Below are positions 159 through 43,290 of a DNA stretch of 43,952 bases, piece by piece. Made by a program: the position numbers and the translations under genes. The DNA is from Pseudomonadota bacterium (GTDB lineage Bacteria > Pseudomonadota > Alphaproteobacteria > Acetobacterales > Acetobacteraceae). Numbering within the stretch: the first letter of the stretch is position 1; each line of letters begins with the position of its first letter. The notes under the pieces were generated by a model. It saw nothing but the letters and a program-made list of their open reading frames with translations, made no database searches and had not been told where the DNA came from. The stretch lies in contig JAJZGI010000012.1 in the NCBI GenBank assembly GCA_021798575.1, positions 1-43,952 of the forward strand, given 5' to 3'.

Positions 159-193
159 GTCATGCGCAATTCGCGCATGACGAAGCAATCCAT
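159..193 (+). repeat. GTCAT...GAAGCAATCC palindromic repeat, copy 1
   Basis: A 9-bp perfect inverted repeat (159-167 GTCATGCGC and 173-181 GCGCATGAC, 5-nt loop) is followed at once by GAAGCAATCCATT. The same layout, GTCATT... then GAAGCAA, recurs at 42157 and 43157. It resembles the GTCATTGCGAG...GAAGCAATCC short palindromic repeats seen in many bacterial genomes (from memory, not searched). It sits 42 nt upstream of a TTGACT promoter box. Confidence 0.6.
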
Positions 194-223
194 TCTTTTC
201 GCAACGAACCGCATTATTCCCCC

Positions 224-262
224 TTGACTCCCCCACAAAATGTCATTACAACTAACAACATG
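224..262 (+). promoter_or_regulatory. Leaderless promoter-start module, copy 1
   Basis: TTGACT (224-229), a 17-nt spacer, TACAAC (247-252), then ATG at 260. The 7-nt gap between the -10 box and ATG puts the expected transcription start at or next to the A of the start codon. Copies at 42229 and 43210 keep the same 36-nt distance from -35 box to ATG and share TAACA-NN-ATGTC. TGTCATTA around the -10 box is shared with copy 3. Confidence 0.55.
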
Positions 263-859
263 TCCGGTGAGCCCATCAACACCCGCCTCTACCACATCGT
301 CATGTACCTGGTGCATACGCTGGGCGACCATGCGCGGCGCGTCAACATGCCGCACTCGCTCTGCCAACTCCTCACAATCCATCTGATCCGCCTGACCCAC
401 CGGCTGCGCATCCTCATCGAGCGCGGGCCGCTCCCCGCGCGCCCACCCCGCACCACGCCGCGCGCAACGCCCGCAAACCCAAAACCCAGCACGATTGAAT
501 ACTACCCACCCACCAGCTTCGCCTGGCTGCTCCGCCTGTTCCCCAACTCCGGGGTCGCCGTCGCCCATTTCCAGCTCAAAACCTTGCTGGACGAGCCCGA
601 GACCCAATCCCTCATCGCCGCCCACCCGACTCTCGCCCGCAGCCTGCGGCCCTTGTGCCGCATGGTCGGCCTCAAAACCCCCGCCTGCCTCAAACTGCCC
701 AGAAAACCCCGCACCAAGCGCCAATCACCCCCCACGCCACAACCGCCAAAACCCGCCCGAAAAATCTGGCACCCGGCGCCACCGCCCAGGCCGATGACCC
801 CGGCCGAGGCGCAACTCGCCGCCCGCCAATTCTTCAACCCCCGTGATTTTTACCTCTGA
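260..859 (+). CDS. Hypothetical protein, basic and proline-rich C-terminus
   Basis: This 199-residue protein has no recognised catalytic domain. Residues 1-60 (MSGEPINTRLYHIV...) are helical and rich in His, Leu and Arg. The middle contains SFAWLLRLFP and a segment ending LRPLCRMVGL, which recall conserved hypothetical proteins common in Acetobacteraceae (family impression only). The last 60 residues are rich in Pro, Lys and Arg. The frame is open back to 152, but that extension would translate the palindromic repeat and promoter, so ATG 260, the conserved ATGTC of the module, is preferred. No Shine-Dalgarno sequence is present, as expected for a leaderless message. Cellular location and function are unknown. 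Confidence 0.6.
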   Translation: MSGEPINTRLYHIVMYLVHTLGDHARRVNMPHSLCQLLTIHLIRLTHRLRILIERGPLPARPPRTTPRATPANPKPSTIEYYPPTSFAWLLRLFPNSGVAVAHFQLKTLLDEPETQSLIAAHPTLARSLRPLCRMVGLKTPACLKLPRKPRTKRQSPPTPQPPKPARKIWHPAPPPRPMTPAEAQLAARQFFNPRDFYL

Positions 860-885
860 ACCCACCCATGCCCACCCACGCCTAA

Positions 886-907
886 ATTGTTACGATATCG
901 CAACAAT
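886..907. promoter_or_regulatory. 22-bp near-perfect palindrome between convergent genes
   Basis: ATTGTT-ACGATATCGC-AACAAT reads the same on both strands except for one mismatched pair (892/901). It has no loop, so it looks more like a protein-binding dyad than a hairpin terminator. Its form recalls Fur/Zur- or TetR-type operators. It lies between the end of the hypothetical gene (859) and the end of the minus-strand GST gene (938), where no gene start is expected, so its role is unclear. Confidence 0.4.
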
Positions 908-937
908 ACAGACAAGCCAGGCATGATACCGCGCCTC

Positions 938-1606
938 TCAAAAATCCAAATCAGCATAGTGCGGCGGCGGCGCCTGACCGTTCACCCGGTCCGCCAGAAT
1001 AGCGCGGAACGACGGGCGGGACTTCATCCTGGCATACCACTCGCGCGCGGCGGGAGCGGCGGACCAGTCCACATCACCGATAAAATCCAGCGCCGAGAGC
1101 TGCGCGGCGGCGGCAAAATCCGCGACCGACAGGCTGGCGCCCGCCAGCCATTTGCGGTGCTCGGCCAGCCAGCCGATATAGGTCAGATGCTGCTTGAGGT
1201 TGGTATAGCCGGCGCGCAGCGCCCCGGCGTCCGGCGCGCCCAGCCGCAGCGCCTGCTTCATGGTCTTCTCCCACAGCAGGTTGCGGGTCACCTCGGCGGC
1301 GAATTTCTCGTCAAACCAGGCGACCAGCCGCCTGGTCTCCACCCGCTCGCCGATACTCCGGCCCAGAAGGCCGGTGTCCGGATATGCCTCCTCTAAATAT
1401 TCGCAGATCACGCGGGAATCTGGCACCACGAGGCCATTATCCTCCACCAGCGTGGGCACGGTGCAGGCCGGGTTCAACTCCAGATATTCGGGCCGGCGCT
1501 CCCACACCTTCTCCGATCGCAGCTCGAACGGCAGGCGCTTTTCGGCCAGAATCAGCCGCACCTTGCGGGCATAGGGGGAGAGCGGCAGATGATACAGGAT
1601 TCGCAT
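938..1606 (-). CDS. Glutathione S-transferase family protein
   Basis: This 222-residue cytosolic protein has the two-domain GST fold. The N-terminal thioredoxin-like domain has SPYARK (Ser10 as candidate glutathione-activating residue), the cis-proline motif VPTLV (Pro51) and the glutathione-contacting pair Asp63-Ser64. An all-helical C-terminal domain follows, with the typical SVADFAAAAQL segment near residue 170. The open frame extends far upstream through the permease gene, but homology begins at MRILYHLPLS, so ATG at 1606 is chosen. It is the last gene of the minus-strand transporter run, 47 bp after the permease, and is probably co-transcribed. Its substrate cannot be read from sequence. 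Confidence 0.85.
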   Translation of the reverse strand: MRILYHLPLSPYARKVRLILAEKRLPFELRSEKVWERRPEYLELNPACTVPTLVEDNGLVVPDSRVICEYLEEAYPDTGLLGRSIGERVETRRLVAWFDEKFAAEVTRNLLWEKTMKQALRLGAPDAGALRAGYTNLKQHLTYIGWLAEHRKWLAGASLSVADFAAAAQLSALDFIGDVDWSAAPAAREWYARMKSRPSFRAILADRVNGQAPPPHYADLDF

Positions 1607-1653
1607 GGGCAGCGTTATGCCACGCGCAAACGCTGACATAAAGCCATCAGAGT

Positions 1654-2580
1654 CTATCGCCGCTCCTCGCGCAAATAGGGCCGCGTGAGGTCGGCCGGCC
1701 GGGCGTCCGCGCCGGTCTGGAACAGCCCGGCGATGAGCAGATAGGCCAATGTGGCGAGGTAGGGCGACATCTCGATGAAGTACACCGGCACGTTCATTCC
1801 GCTGGAGAGCAGTTGCGGCACCAGCGCCTCCACCGCGCCGAACAGCAGCGCGGCGGCGATCGCGCGCAGCGCGCTCCAGCGGGAGAGCGTGACCATGGCA
1901 ACCGCGATCCAGCCGCGCCCGGCCACCATGCCATCCACCCATAAATGCGCCCCTATGAGCGAGAGATGACAACCCGCCAGCGCGCAGAACACCCCACCCG
2001 TCAGCACCGCGCCCATCCGGTAGGCCATCACGGGAACACCAGCGGCGTCGGCGGCGGGCGCGTCCTCGCCCACCGCGCGCAGGCGCAGGCCAGGCCCGGT
2101 GCGCGTCAGCACGAACCACACGATAACAGCGGCGATGAAGGCGAACCAGGTCAGAAAATCCTGGTCCAGAATCCCCGCCGCAAATGTCGGCAGGCGCGCA
2201 AACCAGGCGGCGGGCAGGGGGGAAATGCCGGCGACAGGCTGGTTCTGGAAACCATCCCCCAGATACCCCGAAACCCCGATGCCGAGCGCGAAGGTGACGA
2301 GCCCGGCCAGCACCTGCTCCACCCGCAGCACCACCGCCATGAAGCCGAACAGTGCGGTCAGCGCCACGCCAGCCCCAACACCGCCGATAATCGCCAGCGC
2401 CACATCGCCGCCGGAAAGGTTGATGATCACGGCCACCACGGCGGCGATCGCCATGATCCCCTCAACCCCGAGATTCATGACCCCCGCGCGCTCATTGATG
2501 ATCAGCCCGATCGTCGCGAGCAGGAACGGCGCGGCGAAAGCCGGCGTCGTCGCCGCCCAGGCGCTGAGCAGCTCGCTCAT
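1654..2580 (-). CDS. ABC transporter permease, BMP/nucleoside-type (second subunit)
   Basis: This 308-residue inner-membrane protein has about eight hydrophobic segments. It carries the branched-chain/sugar permease family signature IINERAGVMNLGVEGIM near the N-terminus and the EAA-like region GLRLRAVGEDAPAADAAGV. It matches the NupQ/YufQ type of permease that pairs with a second permease for nucleoside or purine uptake. Its ATG overlaps the stop of the other permease by 4 bp (2577-2580), so translation is coupled. The C-terminus is short and charged (YLREERR). Confidence 0.85.
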   Translation of the reverse strand: MSELLSAWAATTPAFAAPFLLATIGLIINERAGVMNLGVEGIMAIAAVVAVIINLSGGDVALAIIGGVGAGVALTALFGFMAVVLRVEQVLAGLVTFALGIGVSGYLGDGFQNQPVAGISPLPAAWFARLPTFAAGILDQDFLTWFAFIAAVIVWFVLTRTGPGLRLRAVGEDAPAADAAGVPVMAYRMGAVLTGGVFCALAGCHLSLIGAHLWVDGMVAGRGWIAVAMVTLSRWSALRAIAAALLFGAVEALVPQLLSSGMNVPVYFIEMSPYLATLAYLLIAGLFQTGADARPADLTRPYLREERR

Positions 2581-3656
2581 GGCGTCTCCATCCGCCCGCG
2601 CTTCACGAAGCTGAGCCGATAGCGCAGGAAGAATTCAAAGCAGGAGACACAGAACAACAAAGTCGCCTCGATGGTCAGCACGGTCGCACCCGGCAGCTCG
2701 AAGAACGCTTTCAGACTATCCCCCGCCGTATAGAGCGCCGCGATGCCGATCGCCGCCACGACCACGCCGAGCGGATTGGCCCGCGCCAGATACGCGATGA
2801 CGATAGAGGGAAAAATATAGTCGTTGCCGACAAATTGCGTGAGCTTATACTCCTCACCCGCGACGATCGAAAATCCGGCGAGGCCCGAGAGCGCACCGCC
2901 GAGGCAGGCCATCAGCAGCACCACGCGCGCCACCGGCACGCCCACAGCCCGCGCCGCCAGCGGATTGGCGGCGATGGCGTGGGCCATGCTCCCAACGCGG
3001 GAATAGGTACAGAGCCAGAAGCAGAACGCCGCGGCGCCGAGCGCGATGAAAATCCCGGCATGGACATGCCCGAAGCCCAGCAATGCCAGCCGCGCCCCGT
3101 GCGGGAAGCTCTGCGAAACCGGGAAGGAGTCCCGCGGGTTGCGCCACGCGCCATACAGCAGCTGCTGGGCCAGCATCGCGCCGACATAGTTCATCAGCAG
3201 CGTGGTGATCACCTCATTGGCGCGCAGATACAGCCGGGCGGCGGCGCACACGCCGCACCACAGCCCGCCGCCCAGCATGGCGGCCAGGAACATCGTCTCC
3301 AGCCGCAGCGCCGCCGGGCCGATATGGTAGAGCACCACGGCGGTGGCAGCCATCGCGCCCGCCCAGATCTGCCCCTCAACCCCAATGTTCCAGAATTTGA
3401 CCCGCAGGCATAAAGTAACGGAGAGCCCGACGAGCATGAGCGAGATGGCGCGGGTGAGCGTCTCGTCCAGCCCTTCCGGATTGCCGAACGTATAGCCGAT
3501 GAACTGGCTGGCGAGGTCCGAGAGCCCCATGCCCTGGGTAAGCAGGAACAGGGTGCAGAGCACGAGCCCGGTGCCGATACCGCCGAACAGCGTGAGCAGC
3601 GCCAGGCGGCGGGTGACGACGAGCCGCGGCGAGACCAAGGGTTTGTAGCGCCACAT
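2577..3656 (-). CDS. ABC transporter permease, BMP/nucleoside-type (first subunit)
   Basis: This 359-residue inner-membrane permease of the NupP/YufP type starts with a short cytosolic MWRYKPLVSPRLVVTRR segment and has 8-10 membrane spans. The family features LRVKFWNIGVEGQIWAGA and the long loop GSMAHAIAANPLAARAVGVPVARV (partner of the ATPase) are present. Its start codon shares one base with the ATPase stop (TGATG at 3656) and its end overlaps the second permease by 4 bp. With the ATPase and the BMP-type binding protein it forms a complete importer. Confidence 0.85.
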   Translation of the reverse strand: MWRYKPLVSPRLVVTRRLALLTLFGGIGTGLVLCTLFLLTQGMGLSDLASQFIGYTFGNPEGLDETLTRAISLMLVGLSVTLCLRVKFWNIGVEGQIWAGAMAATAVVLYHIGPAALRLETMFLAAMLGGGLWCGVCAAARLYLRANEVITTLLMNYVGAMLAQQLLYGAWRNPRDSFPVSQSFPHGARLALLGFGHVHAGIFIALGAAAFCFWLCTYSRVGSMAHAIAANPLAARAVGVPVARVVLLMACLGGALSGLAGFSIVAGEEYKLTQFVGNDYIFPSIVIAYLARANPLGVVVAAIGIAALYTAGDSLKAFFELPGATVLTIEATLLFCVSCFEFFLRYRLSFVKRGRMETP

Positions 3657-5158
3657 CAGTGCATCTCTAGCATCAGCCGGCCGATCCTGCCCCGGTCCAC
3701 CTGGCCGATCGCCTCGGCCTCGCTGAGGCGGCCACGGCTCATCACGGCGACCCGGTCGGAGAGCTCCATGATCTCATCCAGGTCTTCGGAGATCAGCAGC
3801 ACCGCGACATGGCGCGCGCAGGCGGCGCGCAGCCGCGCCTGCACGGAATGCACGGCGCGGATATCCAGCCCGCGCGTGGGGGAGTGCGCGATGAGGATGG
3901 AAAAATGCCCGGCGAACTCGCGCGCCAACATGAGCTTCTGCGCGTTCCCGCCGGAGAGCAGGCGCGCCGGGGTCTGCGGCGCGGCACCCGCGACCTCGAA
4001 CTCCGTAATCGCGGCCCGAGCCAGGCCATCCATCCATCCATTGCGCACCCACCAGCGTCGCTCCGGCTTCTTGCCCAGCAGCCGGGGCAGTGCGAGGTTC
4101 AACCCCAGGCTCAGCTCGCCAAACAGCCCCATGCCCATGCGGTCGGCGGGGATACAGCGGATGCCGGCCTCCCTGCGCGCCTCGGTGCCGGGTGGGGCCA
4201 GGCTCTCGTTGATCAGCATCTTGCCGTGCGTGGCCCGGCGGATCCCGATCAAAGCCTCCACCAGTTCCGCCTGGCCATTGCCGCCCACCCCGGCGATGCC
4301 GAGAATCTCTCCACCACGCACATCCAGGCTGATCTCCCGCAGCCCGACCCCGTGCGCGCTGGCGGCGGCGGATAGCCGGATCAGCCGCAGGATCTCCCGC
4401 TGCGGCCGGGCGCTGGCGCGCGGCGCCACCACCACCGGCTGCTCCCCCACCATGGCCAGGGCGAGGGACTGCGCGGTCATGCCCGCCGAATCGGCGGCGT
4501 CGATCACGGTCCTGCCCGCGCGCATCACGGTCACGCGGTCGCTATAGCCCAGCACGTCGCGCAGCTTGTGGGTGATCAGCACCACGGCGCGGCCCGATTG
4601 CGCGAGCTGCCGGGCCAGCCCCAGCGCGGCCTTGGCCTCCACCTCGGTCAGCACCGCCGTCGGCTCATCCATGATGAGGATACGCGCCCCGGCCAGCAGC
4701 ACCTTCATGATCTCGAGCTTCTGCCGGTCGGAGATTTCCATCTCATCCACCCGCCATTTCGGGTTGAGATGAAAACCAAGCTGCGCGGCCAACTCCGCCA
4801 TGGCTTGCAGCGCGGCACCCTGGTTTTTCCACCCGGCGGCGCGCGCGCAGGCGAGGCGCAGATTTTCGATGACGGTGAGCGGTCCCACGAGCTTGAAATG
4901 CTGATGGATCATGCCGATGCCAGCATCCGCCGCCGCCGCCGGGTTGGCATAGCGCGCGCCCTGGCCGCCCACCTCCAACACGCCCGCATCCGCCGTATAG
5001 AAGCCTGAGAGTATATTCATCAGCGTGGATTTGCCGGCGCCATTCTCCCCCAGCAGCGCATGGACCTCGCCCCAGCGCAGGGTGAAATCCGCCCCAAGCA
5101 GGGCCGACCGTGACCCGAAGGATTTTTCGATCGCTTCGAGTTTCACGGCCTCGCTCAT
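3656..5158 (-). CDS. ABC transporter ATP-binding protein, duplicated cassette (BMP/nucleoside importer)
   Basis: This 500-residue cytosolic ATPase has two ABC domains in tandem, as in NupO/YufO and sugar importers. Domain 1 has Walker A GENGAGKST (residues 37-45) and Walker B ILIMDEPT. Its signature is atypical (EISDRQKLEI instead of LSGGQ). Domain 2 has a degenerate Walker A (GVGGNGQAEL), a good signature LLSGGNAQKL and a Walker B with His in place of the catalytic acidic residue (IAHSPTRGLD). This asymmetry is usual in the family. Upstream in-frame codons exist, but MSEAVKLEAIEKSFG at 5158 fits the family start. It lies 35 bp after the binding-protein gene. Confidence 0.88.
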   Translation of the reverse strand: MSEAVKLEAIEKSFGSRSALLGADFTLRWGEVHALLGENGAGKSTLMNILSGFYTADAGVLEVGGQGARYANPAAAADAGIGMIHQHFKLVGPLTVIENLRLACARAAGWKNQGAALQAMAELAAQLGFHLNPKWRVDEMEISDRQKLEIMKVLLAGARILIMDEPTAVLTEVEAKAALGLARQLAQSGRAVVLITHKLRDVLGYSDRVTVMRAGRTVIDAADSAGMTAQSLALAMVGEQPVVVAPRASARPQREILRLIRLSAAASAHGVGLREISLDVRGGEILGIAGVGGNGQAELVEALIGIRRATHGKMLINESLAPPGTEARREAGIRCIPADRMGMGLFGELSLGLNLALPRLLGKKPERRWWVRNGWMDGLARAAITEFEVAGAAPQTPARLLSGGNAQKLMLAREFAGHFSILIAHSPTRGLDIRAVHSVQARLRAACARHVAVLLISEDLDEIMELSDRVAVMSRGRLSEAEAIGQVDRGRIGRLMLEMH

Positions 5159-5193
5159 GGGGGAATCTCTGTGCCGCAAATCGCCGCCGCTGG

Positions 5194-6273
5194 CTACTTC
5201 ATCGAGCCTTTCACGTTGGCCACCAGATAATCCATGTTCCACAGATCATCCTGGGAGATCCTGGTGCCAGTCGCGGCCTCCACCTTGCCGGACTGGTCCA
5301 CGATCGGCCCCATCCAGGGCGAGAACGTGCCCGCGATCATCTTGGCCTTTACCGCTTCGATTTTGGAGATATCGGCGGCGGGAATATGCTCGAACGGCGC
5401 ATCCACCACCACGCCAGATTTCATGCCATACAGCGGGGTGCCACTGCTCTTCCAGGTGCCGGACGCCATCTCCTTCACCATCGGGACGAGTTTTTTGCCC
5501 CAGTGGAAGATCACGGAGGTGAGAATGCCATTGGGCACGCTCTTTGCCATGTTCACCTGGTAGCCCACGGAGTATTTCCCGGCTTTTTCGGCGACCAGCA
5601 GGGCGGCGTCGGTGTCCATGTCGGTGGCGATCACATCGGCGCCCTGGCCGATCATCGCAGCCGAGATCTGGGCCTCCTTCACCGGATCGGACCAGGCGTT
5701 GATATAGGCGACCTTCACCACCGTGCCGGGGTTGGCCGCCTCTGCACCCAGCGCGAAGGAATTCACATCCCATAGCACATTGGGGATGGGGAAGGCTTCG
5801 ATCATGCCCAGTGTCTTGGTTTTCGTGGCGTAGCCCGCCGCCATGCCCGCCAGGTACCAGCCCTGGTAGGTCTTGGCGTAGAAACTCTCGAGGTTCGGCG
5901 CGGAGGAAATCCCTGCGATGTTGATAAAGGCGGAATTGGGGTGCGCCTTTGCCTCGGCGGTGAAGGCGTCTGAATAGCCATAGGATCCGGCGATGATGAT
6001 ATTATCGCCGTGGTTGATGAACAGGTCGATCGCCTGCTCCACCTTCTCGGTCACCTCCGGCACGTTCTCGACAAACGGGATACGCTGGTCATAGGCCTTC
6101 ATCAGCGAGAGGCGGGCGGCATTCTGCGCATCGGCCCAGCCGCCATCGTTGGTGGTGCCGAAAAAAATAAAGGCGATTTTCGGCTTGCCCGAGAGCTTCA
6201 CCTGGGCGTGCGCCACACCGGTAGCGCAAATGGCGAGAAAAGAGGCACAGGCGGCGAGATTTTTGAGCTTCAT
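5194..6273 (-). CDS. BMP family ABC transporter substrate-binding protein
   Basis: This 359-residue protein begins with a cleavable signal peptide (MKLKNLAAC...GVAHA, probably cut before QVKL). There is no lipobox, so it should be a soluble periplasmic protein rather than a lipoprotein. The mature part has the basic-membrane-protein fold typical of purine and nucleoside binders: KIAFIFFGTTNDGGW at the start, INHGDNIIIAGSYGYSDA, a YQGWYLAGMAAGYATKTK segment, and DVIATDMDTDAALL. The ATG overlaps the stop of the dioxygenase gene by 4 bp (6270-6273). The ligand is inferred only from the family. Confidence 0.88.
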   Translation of the reverse strand: MKLKNLAACASFLAICATGVAHAQVKLSGKPKIAFIFFGTTNDGGWADAQNAARLSLMKAYDQRIPFVENVPEVTEKVEQAIDLFINHGDNIIIAGSYGYSDAFTAEAKAHPNSAFINIAGISSAPNLESFYAKTYQGWYLAGMAAGYATKTKTLGMIEAFPIPNVLWDVNSFALGAEAANPGTVVKVAYINAWSDPVKEAQISAAMIGQGADVIATDMDTDAALLVAEKAGKYSVGYQVNMAKSVPNGILTSVIFHWGKKLVPMVKEMASGTWKSSGTPLYGMKSGVVVDAPFEHIPAADISKIEAVKAKMIAGTFSPWMGPIVDQSGKVEAATGTRISQDDLWNMDYLVANVKGSMK

Positions 6274-7322: not shown

Positions 7323-7356
7323 CCTTACGGCTTAGCAATTAGAGTGCCATGAGCCA

Positions 7357-8584: not shown

Positions 8585-8657
8585 TGGCCGGTTGCGGCGT
8601 CATGAACATCCGGACCCCGCTATCGCACGCGCGATGGCGGGGTCAAGTCGTGCGGGG

Positions 8658-8918: not shown

Positions 8919-9001
8919 CTAACGCTCCCTATTAGTTGAACGTCTCATAAATATGCCGTCGCGTCGCGCGAACAAGGTCATTCGCAGATGCTTCATAAAA
9001 C

Positions 9002-13084: not shown

Positions 13085-13953
13085 GCGCCAACGACAATGC
13101 AGAGATCATCACGGCGCAGCAGCCCGAGCCCGGCGTGGAGGCATGGTCCGGCAAGGATAAGCAGGACGAGAATTTCCCCGTTGGCTCCTGGCTCATCCGG
13201 CGGGATCTGCGCGAGCATGTCCATGCGTTCTACGCCTTTGCCCGCAACGCCGATGATATCGCGGACAGCGCAGCACTGGAACCTGCGGAGAAGATCGCGC
13301 GGCTGGATATTATGGAAGCGGTGCTGGCTGGCGCGCGCGTTGAGGGCTCGCCCAGCGCCACCCGGCTGCGCGCCAGCCTCGCGGCCTCCGGCGTTCCTTC
13401 CATCCACGCGCGGGAGCTGCTCGTCGCCTTTCGCCAGGATGCGCGCAAAAACCGCTATGCGGACTGGGCGGATTTAATGGACTATTGCCGCTATTCGGCG
13501 GCCCCGGTCGGGCGCTATGTGCTGGACCTGCACGGGGAGGACCAGCAGACCTGGCCCGCGTCGGACGCGCTCTGCGCCGCCCTGCAGGTGCTCAACCATG
13601 TTCAGGACTGCGCGGGCGATCTGCGCGCGCTGGACCGCTGCTACGTCCCGCAGGACTGGATGGCGCAGGCGGGCACCAGCGTGGACGACCTGGCGCGCGG
13701 GGAAACCACCCAAGCGATGCGCGCGGTGCTGGACAGAATGCTGGCCGCCACGATGGGCCTGAACGTCACCGCCGCACCTCTGCCAGCGCTGGTGCGCGCG
13801 CGGCGGCTGCGCATGGAAACGGCGATCATCACGCGTCTCGCGCGCCGCCTCACGGTATTGTTGCAAAACGGGGACCCGCTGGCCGGGCGGGTAAAACTGC
13901 GAAAGGCGGATTTCATTGCCGCCAGCCTGTTCTCGCTGGGGCGGATTCTATGA
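13081..13953 (+). CDS. hpnC: Hydroxysqualene synthase HpnC
   Basis: This 290-residue trans-isoprenyl synthase of the squalene/phytoene synthase family has a first aspartate-rich motif DDIAD (residues 58-62) and a second in NHVQDCAGDL. In the HpnCDE route, HpnD makes presqualene diphosphate and HpnC converts it to hydroxysqualene. The start ATG 13081 overlaps the hpnB stop by 4 bp and the end overlaps hpnD by 4 bp, so the pair should be made in balance. The N-terminus carries about 30 poorly conserved residues before NFPVGSWL. Confidence 0.92.
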   Translation: MSANDNAEIITAQQPEPGVEAWSGKDKQDENFPVGSWLIRRDLREHVHAFYAFARNADDIADSAALEPAEKIARLDIMEAVLAGARVEGSPSATRLRASLAASGVPSIHARELLVAFRQDARKNRYADWADLMDYCRYSAAPVGRYVLDLHGEDQQTWPASDALCAALQVLNHVQDCAGDLRALDRCYVPQDWMAQAGTSVDDLARGETTQAMRAVLDRMLAATMGLNVTAAPLPALVRARRLRMETAIITRLARRLTVLLQNGDPLAGRVKLRKADFIAASLFSLGRIL

Positions 13954-18693: not shown

Positions 18694-18768
18694 GGGCGCG
18701 TAGCGCAGCGGTAGAGCACCACCTTGACATGGTGGGGGTCACAGGTTCAATCCCTGTCGCGCCCACCA
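18694..18768 (+). tRNA. tRNA-Val (anticodon GAC)
   Basis: Complete cloverleaf. The acceptor stem is GGGCGCG (18694-18700) with CGCGCCC (18758-18764), followed by discriminator A and an encoded CCA (18766-18768). The D arm is GCGC-AGCGGTA-GAGC with one G-A mismatch. The anticodon stem CCACC/GGTGG encloses loop TTGACAT, and the T arm is ACAGG-TTCAATC-CCTGT. Anticodon GAC reads GUC and GUU valine codons. Confidence 0.97.
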
Positions 18769-31142: not shown

Positions 31143-31171
31143 GGCGCGATAGGTAGCAGCCGCGATATAAC

Positions 31172-34741: not shown

Positions 34742-34743
34742 TC

Positions 34744-36070: not shown

Positions 36071-36127
36071 GGAATCCTCCTTGGTTGCCAATGATGTAGG
36101 TATGGTCATGGGCCAGCACAACGGCGT

Positions 36128-36234
36128 CCAGAGCATGATTGCGCTACATCAATCATGCTCTGGCCATGTCTTGGCGAGCAAGTTGGCCGCTTTTGGTCGA
36201 AGTAGATGGTTCGACCAAAAGCTACCTTGCTCTA
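36128..36234. repeat. Double-hairpin dispersed repeat, copy B
   Basis: Same design as 8479-8584. Hairpin 1 has a 14-bp stem (36128-36141/36150-36163, GAGCATGATTG/CAATCATGCTC core). The linker is GCCATGTCTTGGCGAGCAAGT. Hairpin 2 is GCTTTTGGTCGA (36189-36200) with TCGACCAAAAGC (36211-36222), closed by GAGCAAG/CTTGCTC. It is intergenic between the pterin dehydratase and carbonic anhydrase genes, both on the minus strand. Confidence 0.8.
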
Positions 36235-36238
36235 AAAT

Positions 36239-36838: not shown

Positions 36839-37635
36839 GCGTTCTGTTCTTTCGCCTGTTTCCAGAATTTTTCCATCTCCGCCAGGCTGGCCTGGGCGGG
36901 CGTCCGGCCGGTCTCGGCCAGCGCGCGCTCCACAAAACCAAACCGCCGGGTGAATTTGTCGTTGGCCCCAGCCAGGCAAGCCTCGGCGCGGAGCCCGAGC
37001 TTGCGGGCGAGGTTGGCCAGCACGAACAGCATGTCGCCCAGCTCATCGGCGAGCCGCACCGGGTCAGCGCCGGGCAGCTCGGCGCGCAGCTCGGCCACTT
37101 CTTCCTCCAGTTTCTCCAGCACCGAAGGCGCGTCCGGCCAGTCGAACCCAACGCCCGCCGCCCGGGCGCAGAGCTTCTGGGCGCGCGCCAAGGCGGGCAG
37201 CGCGGTGGCGATTCCCGCCAGCACGCCGGCCTCCGCGCGGGCCAGCCGCTCTTCTGTCTTTTGGGCCTCCCAGGCTTGGCTCTGCGCGGCGGCATCACGC
37301 CCGGGCGCCTCACCAAACACGTGCGGGTGCCGGCGGATCATCTTGTCCGTGATCCCATCGGCGACGTCGTCAAATCCAAACCACCCGCGCTCTTCCGCCA
37401 GCCGCGCATGATACACCACCTGGAACAGCAAATCCCCCAGCTCGTCGCGCAGGTGCGCAGGGTCGCCCGTGGCGATGGCGGACTGCACCTCATAGGCCTC
37501 CTCGACTGTATAAGGCGCGATACTGGAAAAGTCCTGCGCCCGGTCCCACGGGCAGCCGGTCTCGGGGTGGCGCAGCGCCGCCATGACATTGATCAGCCGG
37601 GCAATCGGTGGTTCGGTGGTCATACGGAATGTCAT
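36835..37635 (-). CDS. mazG: Nucleoside triphosphate pyrophosphohydrolase MazG
   Basis: This 266-residue cytosolic house-cleaning NTP pyrophosphatase has two MazG domains, as in the full-length enzyme. The N-terminal one has CPWDRAQDFSSIAPYTVEEAYE and DELGDLLFQVVYHA (EExxE and ExxD metal ligands). The C-terminal one has LEEEVAELRAEL and DELGDMLFVLANLA. ATG 37635 is given; an ATG four codons in (MTTEPPIARL) is also possible. Its divergent neighbour, glutathione peroxidase, starts only 18 bp away, so their promoters must overlap. Confidence 0.93.
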   Translation of the reverse strand: MTFRMTTEPPIARLINVMAALRHPETGCPWDRAQDFSSIAPYTVEEAYEVQSAIATGDPAHLRDELGDLLFQVVYHARLAEERGWFGFDDVADGITDKMIRRHPHVFGEAPGRDAAAQSQAWEAQKTEERLARAEAGVLAGIATALPALARAQKLCARAAGVGFDWPDAPSVLEKLEEEVAELRAELPGADPVRLADELGDMLFVLANLARKLGLRAEACLAGANDKFTRRFGFVERALAETGRTPAQASLAEMEKFWKQAKEQNA

Positions 37636-37652
37636 AAATTCGGGAGCGGCAA

Positions 37653-38135
37653 ATGGCCAGTGCGTATGACTTCAGTTTTTCCACCATCCAGGGCAAACCC
37701 TACCCGCTGGCGGACCTCACCGGCCGACCGCTGCTCGTGGTCAACACCGCCAGCAAATGCGGCTTCACCCCGCAATACAAGGCGCTGGAGGCATTGTGGA
37801 CCGCCAACAGGCAGGCCGGTCTGATGGTCATCGGCGTGCCCTCGAACGATTTCGGCGGGCAGGAGCCAGGCTCGAACACCGAGATCGCGGGCTTCTGCGA
37901 GCTCAACTACGGCGTGGATTTCCCCATGATGAGCAAGGAGCACGTCCGGGGCCCCGATGCCCACCCGTTCTTCCAATGGGCGGAGGCACAAGCCGGGTAT
38001 CTCGCCCGGCCGCGCTGGAATTTCTTCAAGTACCTCATCAACCGGCAGGGCCAATTGCAGCGATGGTTCTCCAGCGTCACCGCGCCGGATGCCAAAAAAT
38101 TCACGGCGGAAGTACAGAAACTGCTCGAGCAATAA
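37653..38135 (+). CDS. Glutathione peroxidase
   Basis: This 160-residue thiol peroxidase has the catalytic set Cys36 (NTASKCGFT), Gln70 (GGQEPGS) and Trp122-Asn123 (RWNFFKY). It is of the non-selenocysteine (BtuE/Gpx-like) type, which commonly uses thioredoxin or glutathione to reduce peroxides. There is no signal peptide, so it is cytosolic. It is divergent from mazG and overlaps the convergent Nudix gene by 35 bp at the 3' end (38101-38135). Confidence 0.93.
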   Translation: MASAYDFSFSTIQGKPYPLADLTGRPLLVVNTASKCGFTPQYKALEALWTANRQAGLMVIGVPSNDFGGQEPGSNTEIAGFCELNYGVDFPMMSKEHVRGPDAHPFFQWAEAQAGYLARPRWNFFKYLINRQGQLQRWFSSVTAPDAKKFTAEVQKLLEQ

Positions 38136-38529
38136 CCGCGCAGGCGGCCTCGGTCAGCGCGTAGTCCTCCAGCGCATCCACATCCGCCCAGGCCAGCGCG
38201 GTCACGTCATCGCCCGCCCTGGCCTCGCCCGCCACGTACCGCCCGCCAAAATCCAATATCGTGTAATGATACTCTATCCGCCCCTGCGCATCCCGCTGGA
38301 TCAAATCGACATGGGCGATAAGGGTGAGCGGCCCGGCGGTGAGCCCGGTCTCCTCCAGCAGCTCGCGCCGGGCGCAGTCCTCGGCGCGCTCGCCCAGCTC
38401 CTGCCCGCCGCCAGGGAGCGACCACGTGCCGGCCCCGGGCGGTTTGCCCCGGCGCACGAGCAGCACCTGCGCCCCGCGCAGCAGCACGACCCCTATCCCG
38501 ACGATGGGCGCGCCGGGGTAGGTTCTCAC
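38101..38529 (-). CDS. Nudix hydrolase
   Basis: This 142-residue cytosolic pyrophosphohydrolase has a complete Nudix box at residues 41-63 (G-x5-E-x7-RE-x2-EE-x-G; GGQELGERAEDCARRELLEE...). VVLLRGAQVLLVRRG before the box and TWSLPGGG resemble MutT/ADP-ribose-type members. The substrate is not assignable. Its start overlaps the rsmI stop by 4 bp, giving translational coupling, and its 3' end overlaps the convergent peroxidase gene. Confidence 0.9.
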   Translation of the reverse strand: MRTYPGAPIVGIGVVLLRGAQVLLVRRGKPPGAGTWSLPGGGQELGERAEDCARRELLEETGLTAGPLTLIAHVDLIQRDAQGRIEYHYTILDFGGRYVAGEARAGDDVTALAWADVDALEDYALTEAACAVIARAVSVLPP

Positions 38530-39446
38530 CCGCGCTCGCGCATGTTCTTATGCACCTCCAGCGCCCGCGCATACACCAGCTTTCTGGCTAGGCCCGTCGC
38601 CGTCGCCACGGCCTCCGCCGCGTCCCGCAGGCTCATCTGGCTGAGCGCGCTCACAAGCGCCGCCTCCAGCGCCGCCTCCGTGGCGGGTTCAGCCTCCGCC
38701 GGGCCCATCACCACCGTAATCTCGCCGCGCGCCGGCGCCTCGGCGTAGTGCGCGGCAAGCTCGGGCAGCCTGGCGCGGCGGATCTCCTCATAGTGCTTGG
38801 TCAGCTCCCGGCACACCGCGGCGGGGCGCGCACCGAAGCACGCCGCCGCGTCCGCCAAAAATTCCGCCAGCCGGTGCGGCGCCTCATAAAAAATGAGCGT
38901 GGCGCGCAGCCCGGCCGCCTCCAGCGCGCGCAGCCGGGTGAATTCGCTCCGCCTTGGCCCGGCCTTGGGCGGCAGAAACCCCAAAAACATGAAAGGCTGC
39001 GGCGGCAGGCCGGAGAGTGTGAGCGCCAGCAGCGCCGCGTTCGGCCCTGGCACCGCACCCACGCTCACCCCCGCCGCAATCGCGGCGCGCACCAGCCGGA
39101 ATCCGGGGTCCGAGACCAGCGGCGTCCCGGCGTCCGAGATCAGCGCATAATGCGCCCCGCCCAGCAGCGCGGCGATAAGCCCCGGCGTCCGCTCCGCCTC
39201 ATTATGCTCATGCAAGGCGATCAGCCGGGTCCCAATCCCATGGGCGCGCAGCAGCACGGCGCTGGTCCTCGTATCCTCACATAAAATCGCGTCTGTCCCG
39301 TCCAGAATCTCAAGCGCCCTGGCGGATAAATCTTTGAGGTTGCCGATCGGCGTGGAAACCAGCACAAGGGCGGCGGTTGCCACATGTTGGGTGATACCAG
39401 GGGAGGGCCCAATCCTTGAGTCGCAGGTTTTTTGCTCGTCGGTCAT
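38526..39446 (-). CDS. rsmI: 16S rRNA (cytidine(1402)-2'-O)-methyltransferase RsmI
   Basis: This 306-residue tetrapyrrole-methylase-fold enzyme uses SAM to 2'-O-methylate C1402 in the ribosomal decoding centre. Diagnostic segments are LVSTPIGNLKDLSARALEIL, ILCEDTRTSAVLL, LISDAGTPLVSDPGFRLV and PQPFMFLGFLPPKAG. ATG 39446 has GAGG 9 nt upstream. The N-terminal 25 residues are variable, and a GTG at 39384 is an alternative. Its 5' end overlaps the divergent lipoprotein gene by 31 bp. The rsmI-lpoA divergent pair also occurs in E. coli. Confidence 0.93.
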   Translation of the reverse strand: MTDEQKTCDSRIGPSPGITQHVATAALVLVSTPIGNLKDLSARALEILDGTDAILCEDTRTSAVLLRAHGIGTRLIALHEHNEAERTPGLIAALLGGAHYALISDAGTPLVSDPGFRLVRAAIAAGVSVGAVPGPNAALLALTLSGLPPQPFMFLGFLPPKAGPRRSEFTRLRALEAAGLRATLIFYEAPHRLAEFLADAAACFGARPAAVCRELTKHYEEIRRARLPELAAHYAEAPARGEITVVMGPAEAEPATEAALEAALVSALSQMSLRDAAEAVATATGLARKLVYARALEVHKNMRERG

Positions 39447-40732
39447 GTTTGCGTGCCTCAGTGCCTCTCATCGCCACGCTGGCGCTGGTCGGCTGCGCCG
39501 GTCAAGCCCCAATGGTCAACAACGGCATGCCCTCCATGCTCGGCACCAACGGGCTGCCGCTCCCGTCGGGCAGCGTGGCAGCCTCCGGCCCCGTCATCGG
39601 CAAAACCAGCGGCGATGTGGCGCTGCTGCTGCCGCTGAGCGGCAATCTCGCACCTGTCGGCCAGATCCTTGAAAACGCGGCCAAGCTCGCCTTCCCGCCC
39701 GGCACGCAGCCTGCGCTGGACGTGCGGGACACAGGCGGCACCGCCGCCGGTGCCGCCGCCGCCGCGCAAGCCGCCATCGCCGCGGGGGATGGCATCATCC
39801 TGGGCCCGCTCACCGCCGCCGAGACACAGGCGGTCAGCCCCATCGCCCAGGCCGCCGGCGTCAATGTGCTGGCCTTCACCAACGATTCCACGCTCGCGGC
39901 ACCTGGCGTCTGGGTGCTCGGCATCACCCCCACCCAGCAGGTCCAGCGCATCGTGCAGGCGGCGGCGGGGGAGGGCCGCACCCAACTCGCCGCACTCCTG
40001 CCCGATAGCGACTTCGGCCACCTGCTGAGCGACGCGCTGAACGCCCAGACCAGCGCGCTGAACGAGACCCCGCCGCAGATCACCTTCTACGAACCCGGAT
40101 TCTCCGCCCTCAACCAGGCGGTCGAGCAGCTGTCGGACTTCGCCGATCGCGGCCAGGGGCTGGTGGATAGAATCAAAGCCGCGCGCGCCCTGAACACCGC
40201 CGCGGGCCGCACGCTGGCCCACCGGCTCGAGCGTGAGCCAACCCCGCCGCCCAGCTTCAACGCGCTTTTCATCGGCGCCACGAGCGGGGACAGTCTGGCC
40301 GAGCTCGCCAATTTCCTGCCATACTACGGCGTGGACCCATCCCAGGTGCAGCTCCTTGGGCCCAGCCTATGGGCGGATGAGGCGGTGCACATGGCGGACC
40401 AGTCCGTGCTCCAGGGCGCGCTCTACGCCGCACCGGACCCGGCGGACGCGGTGGTCTTCGACGCCAAATATCAGGCGGCCTACGGCGCACCCCCGCCCGA
40501 TATCGCCAATGTGGCGTTCGATGCGGCGGCACTCGCCCGCGCGGCGGCGGCCTCTGGCGGTTACACGAGCACCGTGCTCACCGCGCCCGCGGGCTTCACC
40601 GGCACGGACGGCGTGATGGCGCTCCAGCCGGATGGCCAGGTGCTGCGCGGGCTCGCGGTGTTCAAGGTGGCGCCCGGCGCGCCGGTCATCACCTCGCCCG
40701 CACCCGCCACGCTGGCCCCACCCCCCGGCTGA
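39416..40732 (+). CDS. Penicillin-binding protein activator (LpoA/YraM-like) lipoprotein
   Basis: This 438-residue outer-membrane lipoprotein has signal peptide MSRRFFARRSCLRA...ALVGC with lipobox LVGC, lipidated Cys27. The rest is a periplasmic type-1 binding-protein fold (VALLLPLSGNLAPVGQILENAAKLA, IILGPLTAAETQAVSP, DSDFGHLLSDAL, WADEAVHMADQSVLQGALYAAP). Family members activate class A PBPs or bind unknown ligands. The start is TTG 39416 with GGGAGG 8 nt upstream; it overlaps the divergent rsmI start by 31 bp. Its stop and the kinase ATG share one base (TGATG). Confidence 0.83.
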   Translation: MSRRFFARRSCLRASVPLIATLALVGCAGQAPMVNNGMPSMLGTNGLPLPSGSVAASGPVIGKTSGDVALLLPLSGNLAPVGQILENAAKLAFPPGTQPALDVRDTGGTAAGAAAAAQAAIAAGDGIILGPLTAAETQAVSPIAQAAGVNVLAFTNDSTLAAPGVWVLGITPTQQVQRIVQAAAGEGRTQLAALLPDSDFGHLLSDALNAQTSALNETPPQITFYEPGFSALNQAVEQLSDFADRGQGLVDRIKAARALNTAAGRTLAHRLEREPTPPPSFNALFIGATSGDSLAELANFLPYYGVDPSQVQLLGPSLWADEAVHMADQSVLQGALYAAPDPADAVVFDAKYQAAYGAPPPDIANVAFDAAALARAAAASGGYTSTVLTAPAGFTGTDGVMALQPDGQVLRGLAVFKVAPGAPVITSPAPATLAPPPG

Positions 40733-42090
40733 TGCCCGAGTCGGCGCTGGGCCGAGCCTGGCCGGCGGCGTTCGCCTTCTTCCTGGCGCTCGCGGCCCTG
40801 CCGACCCTCGTCTTCGGCCTGCTGGTCGGCTTCGGCGAGCTGCACGCCCAGCCCGGCCTGTTCGCCTGGGCGATCTGCACCAGCGTCGCGGTCGGCTTCG
40901 GCGCGCTGCTCGGGCGTGACCTCATGGTGATGACGCGCCTCGTCCGTGCCCTGCAAAACTACCCGCAGCACCTCCCGCGCGACACCTCCCTTCTAGTGCC
41001 GGGGATGCGCACGCTGGGCCAGGAGGCAATCCGGCTGGTCCAGGCCGAGCGCATCTCCCGCGCCCGGCTGTCGGCGAGCGCGGCGGAAGACCGCGCATTG
41101 GTGGAGCGCCTGCCGGATCCGCTGATGAAGCTGGACGCCACCGGCAACCTCATCTGGCGCAACGCCAGCGCCATCACCGCCTTCGGCAACGAGACCGGGG
41201 CGCTGTTGCGCCACCCCACACTGCGCGCCGCGCTGGCGGCGGCGGCAGAAGGCCGCGCCCCGGTGCGGGAAAAAATCGCGCTCGCCGCACCGGTCCCGCG
41301 CGAGCTGGAGGTAACGCTCATCTCCCTGGGCGGCCCGGTCTATATGCTGGTGAACGACCGCACGCACGAGCGCGCGCTGGAGAAGATGCGGGCGGACTTC
41401 ATCGCCAATTCCAGCCACGAGCTGCGCACCCCGCTCGCCAGCCTGATCGGCTTCATCGAGACCCTGCGCGGCCCGGCGGCGAATGACCGCCAGGCGCAGG
41501 CGCGGTTTCTGGGCATCATGACCGAGCAGGCGGCGCGGATGCAGCGGCTGCTGGATGATCTGCTCAGCCTCTCGCGCATCGAGATCTCCGAGCATCAGCC
41601 ACCCGAGGAAATGCAGAGCATCGCGCCGGTGCTGGAGCGCATCGTGGCTTCGCTGGAGCCGGTGTTGCGCGCCAACGACGCGCGGATCGACTGCACGCTG
41701 GCGCCGGACCTGCCGATGATCCCGGCGGACGCCGACCAGCTCGCGCAGATCTTCACGAACCTGCTGGATAACGCCATCAAATACGGCAAACGCGGCGGCA
41801 CGATCCGCCTTCAGGCCGTGCGCGCGGGCGCAGACACCCGCTTCGAGCCAGGCGGCGTGCTGGTGAGCGTGGCGGATGATGGTGCTGGCATCGCGCGGGA
41901 GCATATCCCAAGGCTGACGGAGCGATTCTACCGGGTCGACAAGGGCCGCTCGCGCGCGGTCGGCGGCACCGGGCTCGGGCTTGCCATCGTAAAGCACGTG
42001 GTGAACCGGCATCGCGGCCGGCTGGTGATCGAGAGCGCGGAGGGCCAGGGCTCGGTGTTCATGGTCTGGCTGCCGGGCCGGGGTTTTTAG
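40732..42090 (+). CDS. Sensor histidine kinase, PhoR-like
   Basis: This 452-residue inner-membrane kinase has two N-terminal spans (12-32 and 43-62), a linker, a PAS-like region (about 120-215), the H box NSSHELRTPLASLIGF with phospho-acceptor His229, and an ATPase domain with N box NLLDNAIKYG, G1 DDGAGI, F box RFYRVDKGRSR and G2 GGTGLGLAIVK. It resembles PhoR of phosphate control. No response regulator gene lies next to it on this side, so the partner is elsewhere or absent. It is co-translated with the lipoprotein gene. Confidence 0.9.
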   Translation: MPESALGRAWPAAFAFFLALAALPTLVFGLLVGFGELHAQPGLFAWAICTSVAVGFGALLGRDLMVMTRLVRALQNYPQHLPRDTSLLVPGMRTLGQEAIRLVQAERISRARLSASAAEDRALVERLPDPLMKLDATGNLIWRNASAITAFGNETGALLRHPTLRAALAAAAEGRAPVREKIALAAPVPRELEVTLISLGGPVYMLVNDRTHERALEKMRADFIANSSHELRTPLASLIGFIETLRGPAANDRQAQARFLGIMTEQAARMQRLLDDLLSLSRIEISEHQPPEEMQSIAPVLERIVASLEPVLRANDARIDCTLAPDLPMIPADADQLAQIFTNLLDNAIKYGKRGGTIRLQAVRAGADTRFEPGGVLVSVADDGAGIAREHIPRLTERFYRVDKGRSRAVGGTGLGLAIVKHVVNRHRGRLVIESAEGQGSVFMVWLPGRGF

Positions 42091-42156
42091 AGGCTGGCCT
42101 CGCCTATACGTTTCGATAACAAACTCATTATCGCGAGTCTTACGCAGCGCCCCCGC

Positions 42157-42200
42157 GTCATTGCGAATGCCATACGCAGCATGGCATGAAGCAATCCATT
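42157..42200 (+). repeat. GTCATTGCGA...GAAGCAATCC palindromic repeat, copy 2
   Basis: GTCATTGCGA (42157-42166), a 7-bp inverted repeat ATGCCAT (42167-42173)/ATGGCAT (42181-42187), then GAAGCAATCCATT. The following TTCGCAACGAA is shared with copy 1. It precedes the TTGACA box by 41 nt measured from GAAGCAA. Confidence 0.65.
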
Positions 42201-42228
42201 TTCGCAACGAACGACCAAAATTTCCCCC

Positions 42229-42267
42229 TTGACAACCCCGAAATATATTACTGTAAATAACAGCATG
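42229..42267 (+). promoter_or_regulatory. Leaderless promoter-start module, copy 2
   Basis: TTGACA (42229-42234), a 17-nt spacer, TGTAAA (42252-42257) as a weak -10 box, 7 nt, then ATG 42265. Spacing is identical to copies 1 and 3. CTGTAAATAACAG around the -10 box is itself a short dyad (CTGT-N5-ACAG). Confidence 0.5.
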
Positions 42268-42309
42268 TCTAGCAATACCCGCTCCGCCCGCCCGACAAAG
42301 CCAGATTAA
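42265..42309 (+). other. 14-codon ORF of module copy 2
   Basis: Encodes MSSNTRSARPTKPD then TAA. It matches in length, start context and position the 14-residue ORF at 43246-43290. It is too short for function to be judged; it could be a leader peptide or the remnant 5' end of a longer gene such as the one at 260-859. Confidence 0.35.
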
Positions 42310-42441
42310 TCGGTTACCATCCATGATTCAGCCAAATCAACCCACCAGCGCCCTGTCCCGCATCACGCGCCTGCTTCTCATCATGCCCTGCATAGGTCCA
42401 TCTGTTTCCAAAACGCCCCGCCGGCACCGCAGATGATCTGA

Positions 42442-43140
42442 TTGATTCTCAAAATCATAATAATTGGCGTAGCACTCCTTTTTTGCGCCATTTGCGCCTT
42501 TGCGATTTTGTGGATTTAGGAGGGCTACGTTATATCCAGCTACCCACCGGGGAAATACCAGCCGCCAACCTATAGCAAGACGCCCGCCATATACTATGTC
42601 GGAACGCACGCCTTCAAAGTCCCGCAGGATTATTCGTTCCTTTCGGTCTCCGATTACGGCGGGCCAGGCAATACACATCTCATATTCGATTTCTATTATC
42701 CGGACTTTTCGGCCTTGCTCGACAATCCGGCATTCATTGCGGGCAGTGGCACCTCACGAGACGATAATCGCTCGATCGAAATCTATCTGATGGCGGATAA
42801 CAATACCTCCACCGGATTGCGGGAGCTGCAGGCCATAAAAGCGGGCACCACCACGGACAAAATCAAGCCTGGGCCCTATGGGTTACTCAAAGTTCGTAAA
42901 AAAGACTATCCCGCATGGGACGGTCATGATATCGGCTTGTTCGATAAAACCGCCATCGATATCACATGCGGAGACACGAAAATTCTCCAGCCTGATGGTA
43001 CGCGGGATAACCTCCGTATCGGTTTTTATCCCTATGAAGACCTGGATATAGAAGAAAGTTTCAGCGTGCCAAACCTGCAACACTGGCGGCAGATCGTTCA
43101 AAAGACAATCCATTTCCTGGACATTGATGAGGTCAAATAA
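42442..43140 (+). pseudogene. Membrane-anchored or secreted hypothetical protein, interrupted by an in-frame TAG
   Basis: A single frame from TTG 42442 encodes a short basic start and a hydrophobic segment (IIIIGVALLFCAICAFAILWI), then TAG at 42517-42519, then 206 further codons to TAA 43138 without a stop. The part after TAG starts EGYVISSYPPGKYQPP and includes THAFKVPQDYSFLSV and an FYYPDF segment, typical of a folded extracytoplasmic domain with no ATG of its own; its only later start candidate is TTG 42715. The simplest reading is a membrane anchor separated from its domain by an amber mutation. An AGGAGG sequence overlaps the TAG but is followed by GTTATA, not a start codon. Function unknown. 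Confidence 0.55.
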
Positions 43141-43156
43141 TGCCGCCGGGCAAATT

Positions 43157-43183
43157 GTCATTCTAGCGCAGCGAAGCAACCTA
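43157..43183 (+). repeat. GTCATT...GAAGCAA repeat, copy 3
   Basis: GTCATTCTAGCGCAGCGAAG, then CAACC. It matches the GTCATTGCGAGCG-AGCGAAGCAATCC pattern of the other copies with small changes and lies 37 nt before TTGACA, measured from GAAGCAA. Confidence 0.55.
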
Positions 43184-43209
43184 ATCTCAATAAACCAATT
43201 ATTTTTCCC

Positions 43210-43248
43210 TTGACAAACCTATTAAATGTCATTATAGATAACAAAATG
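43210..43248 (+). promoter_or_regulatory. Leaderless promoter-start module, copy 3
   Basis: TTGACA (43210-43215), a 17-nt spacer, TATAGA (43233-43238), 7 nt, ATG 43246. This is the best sigma-70 match of the three copies. TGTCATTATAGATAACA over the -10 box is an imperfect dyad (TGT...ACA ends), a possible repressor site. Confidence 0.6.
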
Positions 43249-43290
43249 TCTGAAAATACCTCCTCCGCCAGCCGGATAACGCCATATTGA
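43246..43290 (+). other. 14-codon ORF of module copy 3
   Basis: Encodes MSENTSSASRITPY then TGA. Its stop overlaps a TTG (43287) that is in frame with the secreted-protein gene, so translation could be coupled. It corresponds to the ORF at 42265-42309. Confidence 0.35.

Follow-up and report, generated by a model that had tools for sequence, protein, structure and literature searches.

What gene or element does a promoter-and-start module belong to when it recurs at fixed spacing on one contig, and how is it used? The question is raised by the 43,952-nt stretch of DNA analysed here (the window: positions 1 to 43,952 of contig JAJZGI010000012.1, assembly GCA_021798575.1, from a bacterium of the Acetobacteraceae), which is contig 76 of a 95-contig, 2.37-Mb genome. 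The original prediction described three copies of the module in the window, each preceded by a palindromic repeat, and proposed a dispersed expression cassette that puts unrelated genes under one leaderless start. According to our analysis, the module is probably the 5′ end of a dispersed gene cassette of a single gene family, leaderless and controlled by a repressor, which would be LexA in some of the relatives. Contigs of the window's genome are numbered with C, sampled genomes with G and loci with L.

The start module and its gene family

The three window modules have the form described for them. TTGAC boxes at 224, 42229 and 43210 are followed by ATGTC exactly 36 nt later (260, 42265 and 43246), TAACA-NN-ATGTC is present in all three, and the -10-like hexamers TACAAC, TGTAAA and TATAGA are located 17 nt past the -35 hexamer and 7 nt ahead of the ATG. 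The parts concerned are as follows.

220..259 (+): leaderless-type promoter of module 1, with CCCC, the -35 TTGACT (224-229), a 17-nt spacer, the -10 TACAAC (247-252), then TAAC and three free bases before the ATG; operator-like core TGTCATTACAACTAAC
260..859 (+): full member of the gene family, 199 amino acids, pI 11.3, beginning MSGEPINTRLYHIV, containing LRPLCRMVG and ending NPRDFYL
42225..42264 (+): promoter of module 2, read below as captured, TTGACA-N17-TGTAAA
43206..43245 (+): promoter of module 3, likewise read as captured, TTGACA-N17-TATAGA

Many more copies with the same spacing are present in the genome, where TTGAC-N31-ATGTC has 36 matches (24+12) and the reversed pattern, used as chance control, has 1 (0+1). 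Three of the matches (C15:6593, C44:28136 and C63:10101) are unrelated to the module and the other 33 have in common, with variations, CCCCTTGAC-N17-TATAACTAAC-NNN-ATGTC, or as a longer consensus CCCCTTGACnnnnnnnnnnAAATGTCAyTATAACTAACnnnATGTC. Together with three near-variants (copies on C40, C83 and C25), these 33 make up the 36 aligned 5′ ends. Identity among them is high at -40..-37 (0.89), at -35 (0.86), at -21..-4 (0.88) and at ATGTCN (0.92), and low at -30..-22 (0.58), at -3..-1 (0.37) and at -100..-61 (0.28); the bases at -3..-1 are thus free, yet their length is fixed. The leaderless-mRNA promoter geometry is borne out by these 5′ ends, in which a TTGAC-N17-TATAAC pair is conserved 7 nt from the ATG, and from TTGACT-N17-TATAAC plus 7 nt the RNA start is expected at or next to the A of the ATG.

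A gene family of about 200 codons adjoins 32 of the 36 modules, as judged from the 22 to 205 codons readable per module (fewest at contig ends). The idea of one leaderless start on unrelated genes is therefore not upheld, since these 32 belong to a single paralogous family; of the dispersed cassette, the many copies stand, but what is dispersed is the 5′ end of one gene family and only four modules are on other genes. A protein search of the genome gave 41 match pieces, 33 of which reach residue 197-199, which indicates about 33 family copies. Many contigs of this genome end inside family copies; the family breaks the assembly, and the copy number is therefore an estimate. The longest open reading frame (ORF) over the first window copy begins at 152, inside the repeat, so that a gene finder may misplace the start of this copy.

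The family protein is basic and rich in proline and arginine (16% proline in the window member), has the core motif LRPLC and is predicted to be helical. Among 190 pairs of 20 complete paralogs the ratio of nonsynonymous to synonymous substitution (dN/dS) has a median of 0.405 and a range of 0.155-0.618; the paralogs are under purifying selection and thus have been kept as proteins. In a full-length copy on contig 40 (L035, 1501-1503) the ATG of the other complete copies is replaced by an isoleucine codon, and the promoter is intact.

The window protein belongs to no family in Pfam, NCBIfam or PHROGs. Searches with 64 members gave scattered weak matches, none of them a transposase by name (best E 0.0094 in Pfam and 0.039 in NCBIfam), and a single unnamed PHROG in one member (E 0.0015). 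Weak PADLOC matches to PDC-M25B in 4 of the 64 (best E 0.006) and to REase_II in one (E 0.012) were not believed. Structure prediction gave a helical model with a mean predicted local distance difference test (pLDDT) score of 85.2, for which Foldseek found no match at E <= 0.001 in the PDB or among viral models; VIA rows were tied for the family model. By sequence, two PDB entries with design-like names were matched (E 0.0001 and 0.013). The titles and abstract openings listed on leaderless genes, the SOS response, repetitive extragenic palindromic (REP) sequences and multicopy families in Acetobacteraceae or Gluconobacter do not describe the family, which is apparently undescribed.

The four modules on other genes are found at 42265 and 43246 in the window and at 13512 and 14164 on C87. 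Each opens an ORF of 14-24 amino acids, and at least one of these ORFs (MSGDTQSTRL...) is similar to the first codons of the family itself. All four stand in a block which the window and C87 share at 79% identity over 1 kb. We read them as captured 5′ ends of family copies that now lie before other genes. In the window the block has the following features.

42265..42309 (+): 14-amino-acid ORF MSSNTRSARPTKPD from the captured start
42325: short piece similar to the 5′ part of the gene at 43311, followed by an open frame at 42520-43137 (+)
43246..43290 (+): 14-amino-acid ORF MSENTSSASRITPY, opened by the captured start and located upstream of the gene at 43311
43311..43838 (+): non-family protein of 175 amino acids with an N terminus resembling a signal peptide (by eye), apparently served by the captured promoter

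These four places could be taken to mean that repeat and promoter form a dispersed element of their own, a mobile promoter to which the gene family is incidental. We regard this as very improbable, as the same gene is carried by 32 of 36 modules, the two exceptional blocks are duplicates of each other and no captured modules were found here beyond the four; inspection of all module places led us to reject a mobile promoter for unrelated genes.

The segments 42520-43137 and 43311-43838, which encode two small uncharacterised proteins, have duplicates on contig 87 beside a 382-amino-acid protein resembling a cell-wall hydrolase by eye (L026, 1117-1581, 1723-2265 and 2217-3413). Pfam gave no match here; the arrangement may be an effector-immunity cluster. 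A gene resembling glutathione S-transferase (938-2119, -) adjoins the first cassette, and a tRNA-Val(gac) is present at 18694-18768 (+), tRNA being all that Rfam detected in the window.

The family, its promoter and the LexA box in relatives

Relatives of the family protein were matched in 52 of 249 Acetobacteraceae genomes (the window's own included), representing 24 of 102 genera, and several of these genomes have at least 12 scored matches each. Within the genus of the window's genome, a real homolog was found only in G024 among 36 other genomes searched; a protein match in G022 was rejected because it lies antisense in an ORF resembling a histidine kinase (by eye), and one in G036, of nearly the same score and query range as the G022 match, was rejected along with it. 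A class-wide sample of 385 gave only weak matches besides G000. A named scan found 261 relatives, and the 80 loci kept from it are all on metagenome-assembled genome records, labelled Acetobacteraceae, Acidiphilium, Asaia, Rhodospirillales or Proteobacteria; a scan with the own-genome profile found no relatives, and the queries tried gave no family match in phage, plasmid or viral-contig records.

In a tree of 149 proteins, single clades are formed by the members from the window's genome (24; support 100/99), JAFAHH (12; 100/100) and JANXSM (12; 100/100). JAKADX (30 rows, 4 changes), G567 (11, 5), G645 (9, 3) and G512 (8, 3) do not form single clades and thus seem to hold several older lineages together with local amplification. 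The family has been amplified partly genome by genome, independently in several Acetobacteraceae.

The promoter was surveyed in 159 distinct ORFs of the family, of which 150 had enough sequence and 9 were dropped. A TTG[AC]C or TTTC[TC]CAC-type box was required 35-38 nt before an in-frame start, and such a -35-type box is present in 115 of the 150 genes, so that the spacing is conserved in the relatives, a check which the original prediction had named. In a histogram of distances up to 60 nt, peaks are seen at 36 and 37 (49 each). The anchored starts (76 ATG, 38 GTG and 1 TTG) span 27 genome labels, which overstate the number of genomes: G565 and JAKADX are the same (merged), and a single assembly seems to underlie both G507 and JAFAHH.

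In 28 of the 115 starts GTTC-N7-GTTC is located exactly at -15..-1, directly against the start codon; it occurs at none of the offsets 1-39, and shuffling expects 0.003. GTTCN7GTTC is the LexA motif of Caulobacter (PMC12700426). Whole-genome counts of GTTCN7GTTCRTG against the reversed motif are 23:0 in G508, 19:0 in G565, 30:8 in G507, 11:0 in G610, 9:0 in G645 and 7:0 in G596, and recA is preceded by GAAC-N7-GAAC in 7 of 8 genomes, the window's included, the eighth (G507) having no 5′ region. The other starts have, by a loose rule, a GTTA/TAAC-type dyad (21 of 23 in the window's genome, 16 of 27 in JAKADX) or no recognised box. The 27 anchored JAKADX copies (loci among L134-L207) thus combine these 16 with 10 of the LexA type, and in one LexA-box copy, L198 (JAKADX/WY1.bin101), GTTC is followed directly by CTG at the place of the start codon.

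Leaderless transcription from the module promoters is predicted from this geometry with high confidence, as is LexA control of the copies that bear the box. For the copies of the window's genome we lean towards another repressor acting at the same place.

One might regard the conserved 5′ sequence as a mere operator and promoter of a gene with a normal leader, whose RNA would start well upstream or whose true start codon would lie downstream. The reading frame is indeed often open upstream: an in-frame stop inside the promoter is found in only 25 of the 115 genes, and only 42 have no possible start ahead of the anchored one. Yet the promoter pair stands 7 nt from the ATG throughout the 36 5′ ends, a similar promoter distance is kept under more than 20 genome labels, the LexA box abuts the start codon at one offset only, and none of the 115 genes has a downstream alternative start with a Shine-Dalgarno-like site. 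We therefore consider a normal leader improbable.

Several points count against the preferred interpretation of a leaderless cassette with LexA control in some relatives. The leaderless 5′ ends are themselves predictions. A -35 at 35-38 nt is missing from 35 of the 150 genes, and the promoter rule fails in 11 of 13 JANXSM genes (partly because too late a start was chosen) and in all four of JADLHF, three of which have CTTGGC. The rule also allows three kinds of box, four distances and several starts, which favours finding matches, and the histogram has, over a background of about 1-5 per distance, 11 at 31 and 14 at 38. The LexA box is absent from the copies of the window's genome, whose only two GTTCN7GTTCRTG sites are not at cassettes; it is not clearly above control in G567 (5:3), G512 (1:1) and G443 (3:2), where the family is present; and of 30 GTTCN7GTTCRTG loci checked, 12 were shown to encode family proteins, the others seeming to be chance matches, truncated pieces or different genes. 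Promoters of the LexA class have a weak -10. The 38 GTG codons among the 115 anchored starts are unlike the mapped leaderless mRNAs of Gluconobacter, which start nearly all with ATG (PMC5756330). Shine-Dalgarno-like sites were found at 0 of the 115 anchored starts, but such pentamers are rare in the genome anyway (4.4% of random sites, 4 of 27 long ORFs), which makes their absence weak evidence for a leaderless reading, and it was dropped as proof.

Ends of the unit, repeats and dispersal

For the extent of the shared unit, 24 copies were compared with one another in 243 alignments. In 120 of these the homology sets in 40-59 nt before the ATG, and in 104 it takes in the repeat and sets in 80-159 nt before the ATG. 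A 3′ extent is listed for 172 alignments, and in 132 of these the homology stops 40-59 nt beyond the stop codon; alignments that lack a stop codon, or break off more than 200 nt short of it, are not in this count. The shared unit extends from the promoter to a dyad just past the stop, and its ends are sharp. The dyad, TTGTTACGATATCGTAACAA, forms the 3′ end of the unit, and it is listed below with the repeats of the window.

887..906 (+): 3′ dyad (TTGTTACGATATCGCAACAA), with which the shared unit ends; its first base is 27 nt after the stop codon
150..192 (+): CGTC-like REP palindrome 5′ of module 1, with GTCATGCGCAATTCGCGCATGACGAAGCAATCCA at 159-192
42156..42198 (+): REP-like palindrome 5′ of module 2, CGTCATTGCG...CATGAAGCAATCCA
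43157..43181 (+): degenerate REP-like repeat 5′ of module 3, GTCATTCTAGCGCAGCGAAGCAACC, lacking the GAAGCNATCC core

The 14-base core of this dyad, the palindrome TTACGATATCGTAA, has 15 sites in the window's genome, all just past a family match, and none in 40 other genomes. The 3′ dyad scores at least 13/20 in 82 of 139 family genes (20 of 20 in the own genome, 62 of 119 in others) as against 1 of 137 control stretches, and 81 of the 82 scoring dyads are located 15-28 nt after the stop. A role as an RNA hairpin or terminator is not favoured, because no U run is visible by eye and a C-G pair is C.A in 28 of the 82. Co-evolution of the 5′ and 3′ dyads was dropped after inspection by eye, JAFAHH pairing GTTC-type 5′ sites with GTTAC-type 3′ sites.

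The palindromic repeat said to precede each module is clear at 159-192 and 42156-42198, but the third is degenerate. Of the 36 own 5′ ends, 29 have a REP-like core no more than 130 nt upstream of the -35. All GAAGCNATCC cores in the stretches searched, namely 14 cassette loci (117 kb; 11 of 11) and the window (2 of 2), are 5′ of modules, the rest of the genome not having been searched. None is seen at the 3′ side of own copies, and at cassettes of other genera REP cores are rare, so that the repeat is not part of the general module. A link between REP and cassette is only suggested for the window's genome, and a general one was rejected outside it. In G567 and G512 (L106-L112, L126, L129-L132) the REP is replaced beside several cassettes by a different repeated palindrome (TTTTTTGCTTCTTTTTT...AAAAAAGAAG and similar ones).

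Unrelated genes flank the copies, for example putA, methylthioadenosine phosphorylase, icd and glycosyltransferases, and the copies are often convergent with a neighbour. At the loci inspected, neighbours differ from copy to copy and no conserved partner gene of the toxin-antitoxin kind was seen. On C83 the unit sits between icd and an efflux-type gene (named by eye), and in relatives this gap is 83 nt (G035), 121 nt (G017) and 441 nt (G029) without the unit and, from coordinates, about 111 nt in G032, 142 in G010, 260 in G006 and 611 in G018; in the remaining relatives the two genes are farther apart, on different contigs or not both found. The empty site shows no readable junction or target duplication, a further point against the cassette interpretation, and no clean empty site was found in relatives for the C86 and C48 copies.

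One possibility for the spread of the unit, about which we are doubtful without dismissing it, is an active mobile element, in which the cassette has the REP or the 5′ dyad and the 3′ dyad as its ends and continues to be mobilised in trans by a transposase or recombinase. The sharp unit ends, the dispersal among unrelated genes with an empty site in relatives, the genome-specific amplification, the conserved 3′ dyad and the confinement of REP cores, within the stretches searched, to the 5′ side of cassettes are consistent with such an element. So are contig-end pieces of different copies (C7/C44, C58/C93, C14/C95 and C37/C90), which have different flanks but agree at every base over 104-126 nt; copies may therefore have arisen recently, or been altered by gene conversion, in some cases, and the view that there was no recent copying is weakened. 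These identical stretches are short, however, and the three 3′ pairs among them differ just past the stop (0.32-0.84 identity). The lowest synonymous divergence (Ks) among the 20 complete paralogs is 0.16, in a set from which near-identical copies tend to be missing because they break the assembly. Among transposases and recombinases the protein has no match, which sets it apart from insertion sequences, no target-site duplication was seen and the REP link is rare in other genera.

Alternatively, an ordinary paralogous family could have been spread by segmental duplication and REP recombination, with promoter and 3′ site carried along. The purifying selection, the REP and linker common to many copies (the 104 longer alignments) and the pair C87/C70, with 534 nt in common, fit this explanation. 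It nevertheless seems unlikely, as most alignments stop at the promoter or REP and at the 3′ dyad and not randomly in flanking genes, no REP cores are seen 3′ of own copies, and other genera have amplified the family though REPs are rare there. That the unit spread as a discrete piece, by some enzyme in trans, is suggested here with reserve.

Proposed working of the cassette and its significance

In the proposed mechanism, the primary sigma factor would read the -35/-10 pair and the RNA would begin at or next to the A of the ATG, giving a leaderless mRNA on whose 5′-terminal AUG or GUG the ribosome would start. A repressor would bind the dyad overlapping the -10 and the start point. Where this repressor is LexA, as proposed for part of the relatives, DNA damage would induce the copies jointly; for the window's genome we propose that another repressor would use GTYA-N7-TAAC at the same place. 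The second and third window modules would be promoter captures, in which the 5′ end of a copy now stands before other genes.

The module resembles the sigma-70 leaderless promoters of alphaproteobacteria (PMC5756330; PMC8407463) in its TTG -35, its 17-nt spacer and a TATAAC -10 without the -7T, and in a start point expected within 3 nt of the start codon, which for the cassette is a prediction. The start-site map of G. oxydans gives leaderless mRNAs for 62 of 1344 transcription start sites, nearly all with ATG (PMC5756330). Against these mRNAs, the cassette geometry is distinguished by being shared by one family in dozens of copies over many genera. The likeness to the alphaproteobacterial LexA/SOS regulon (PMC12700426) is the exact box in 28 of the 115 family promoters and at recA; here the box has a fixed place at -15..-1, directly before the start codon of a gene of leaderless type, and recurs over many paralogs.

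CGTC-tagged REPs have been reported to be without a dedicated transposase (PMC3733652). The repeat at 42156 begins CGTCATTGCG and ends GAAGCAATCC, and was assigned to this kind from its CGTC end, with no tool match; unlike the reported REPs, its core occurs only 5′ of one protein-coding cassette in the stretches searched. REPtrons with their REP-associated tyrosine transposase (RAYT) and IS200/605-type units likewise have palindromes beside a dispersed gene. In REPtrons, a Y1 tyrosine transposase goes with GTAG REPs, whereas the cassette gene matches no tyrosine transposase, its repeat is of the CGTC kind and the unit ends in a different 3′ dyad; a RAYT elsewhere in the genome was not searched for. 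Among the nearest systems considered are also Avd of the diversity-generating retroelements and other small helical bundles. Compared with integron gene cassettes, the copies are dispersed and carry their own promoter.

We tentatively propose an undescribed class of dispersed cassette, in which a leaderless gene is placed between a promoter-operator and a 3′ dyad, with no recognisable transposase. Such cassettes would have been amplified independently in several Acetobacteraceae, would enter intergenic or terminator regions and would, in part of the lineage, be wired to LexA at the start codon, tens of copies then firing jointly upon DNA damage; here they would be tied to the CGTC REPs and could supply the protein partner which that repeat class lacks.

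The family is present in 52 of 249 sampled genomes, in many of them in a dozen or more copies, and no credible model covers it in Pfam, NCBIfam, PHROGs or PADLOC. Its tens of leaderless-type promoters, with fixed spacing and free bases at -3..-1, make the rules of leaderless starts directly testable. The REP-cassette link seen here makes the question of what moves CGTC REPs testable as well. If the copies with a LexA box are induced together, their output would be coupled to the SOS response genome-wide.

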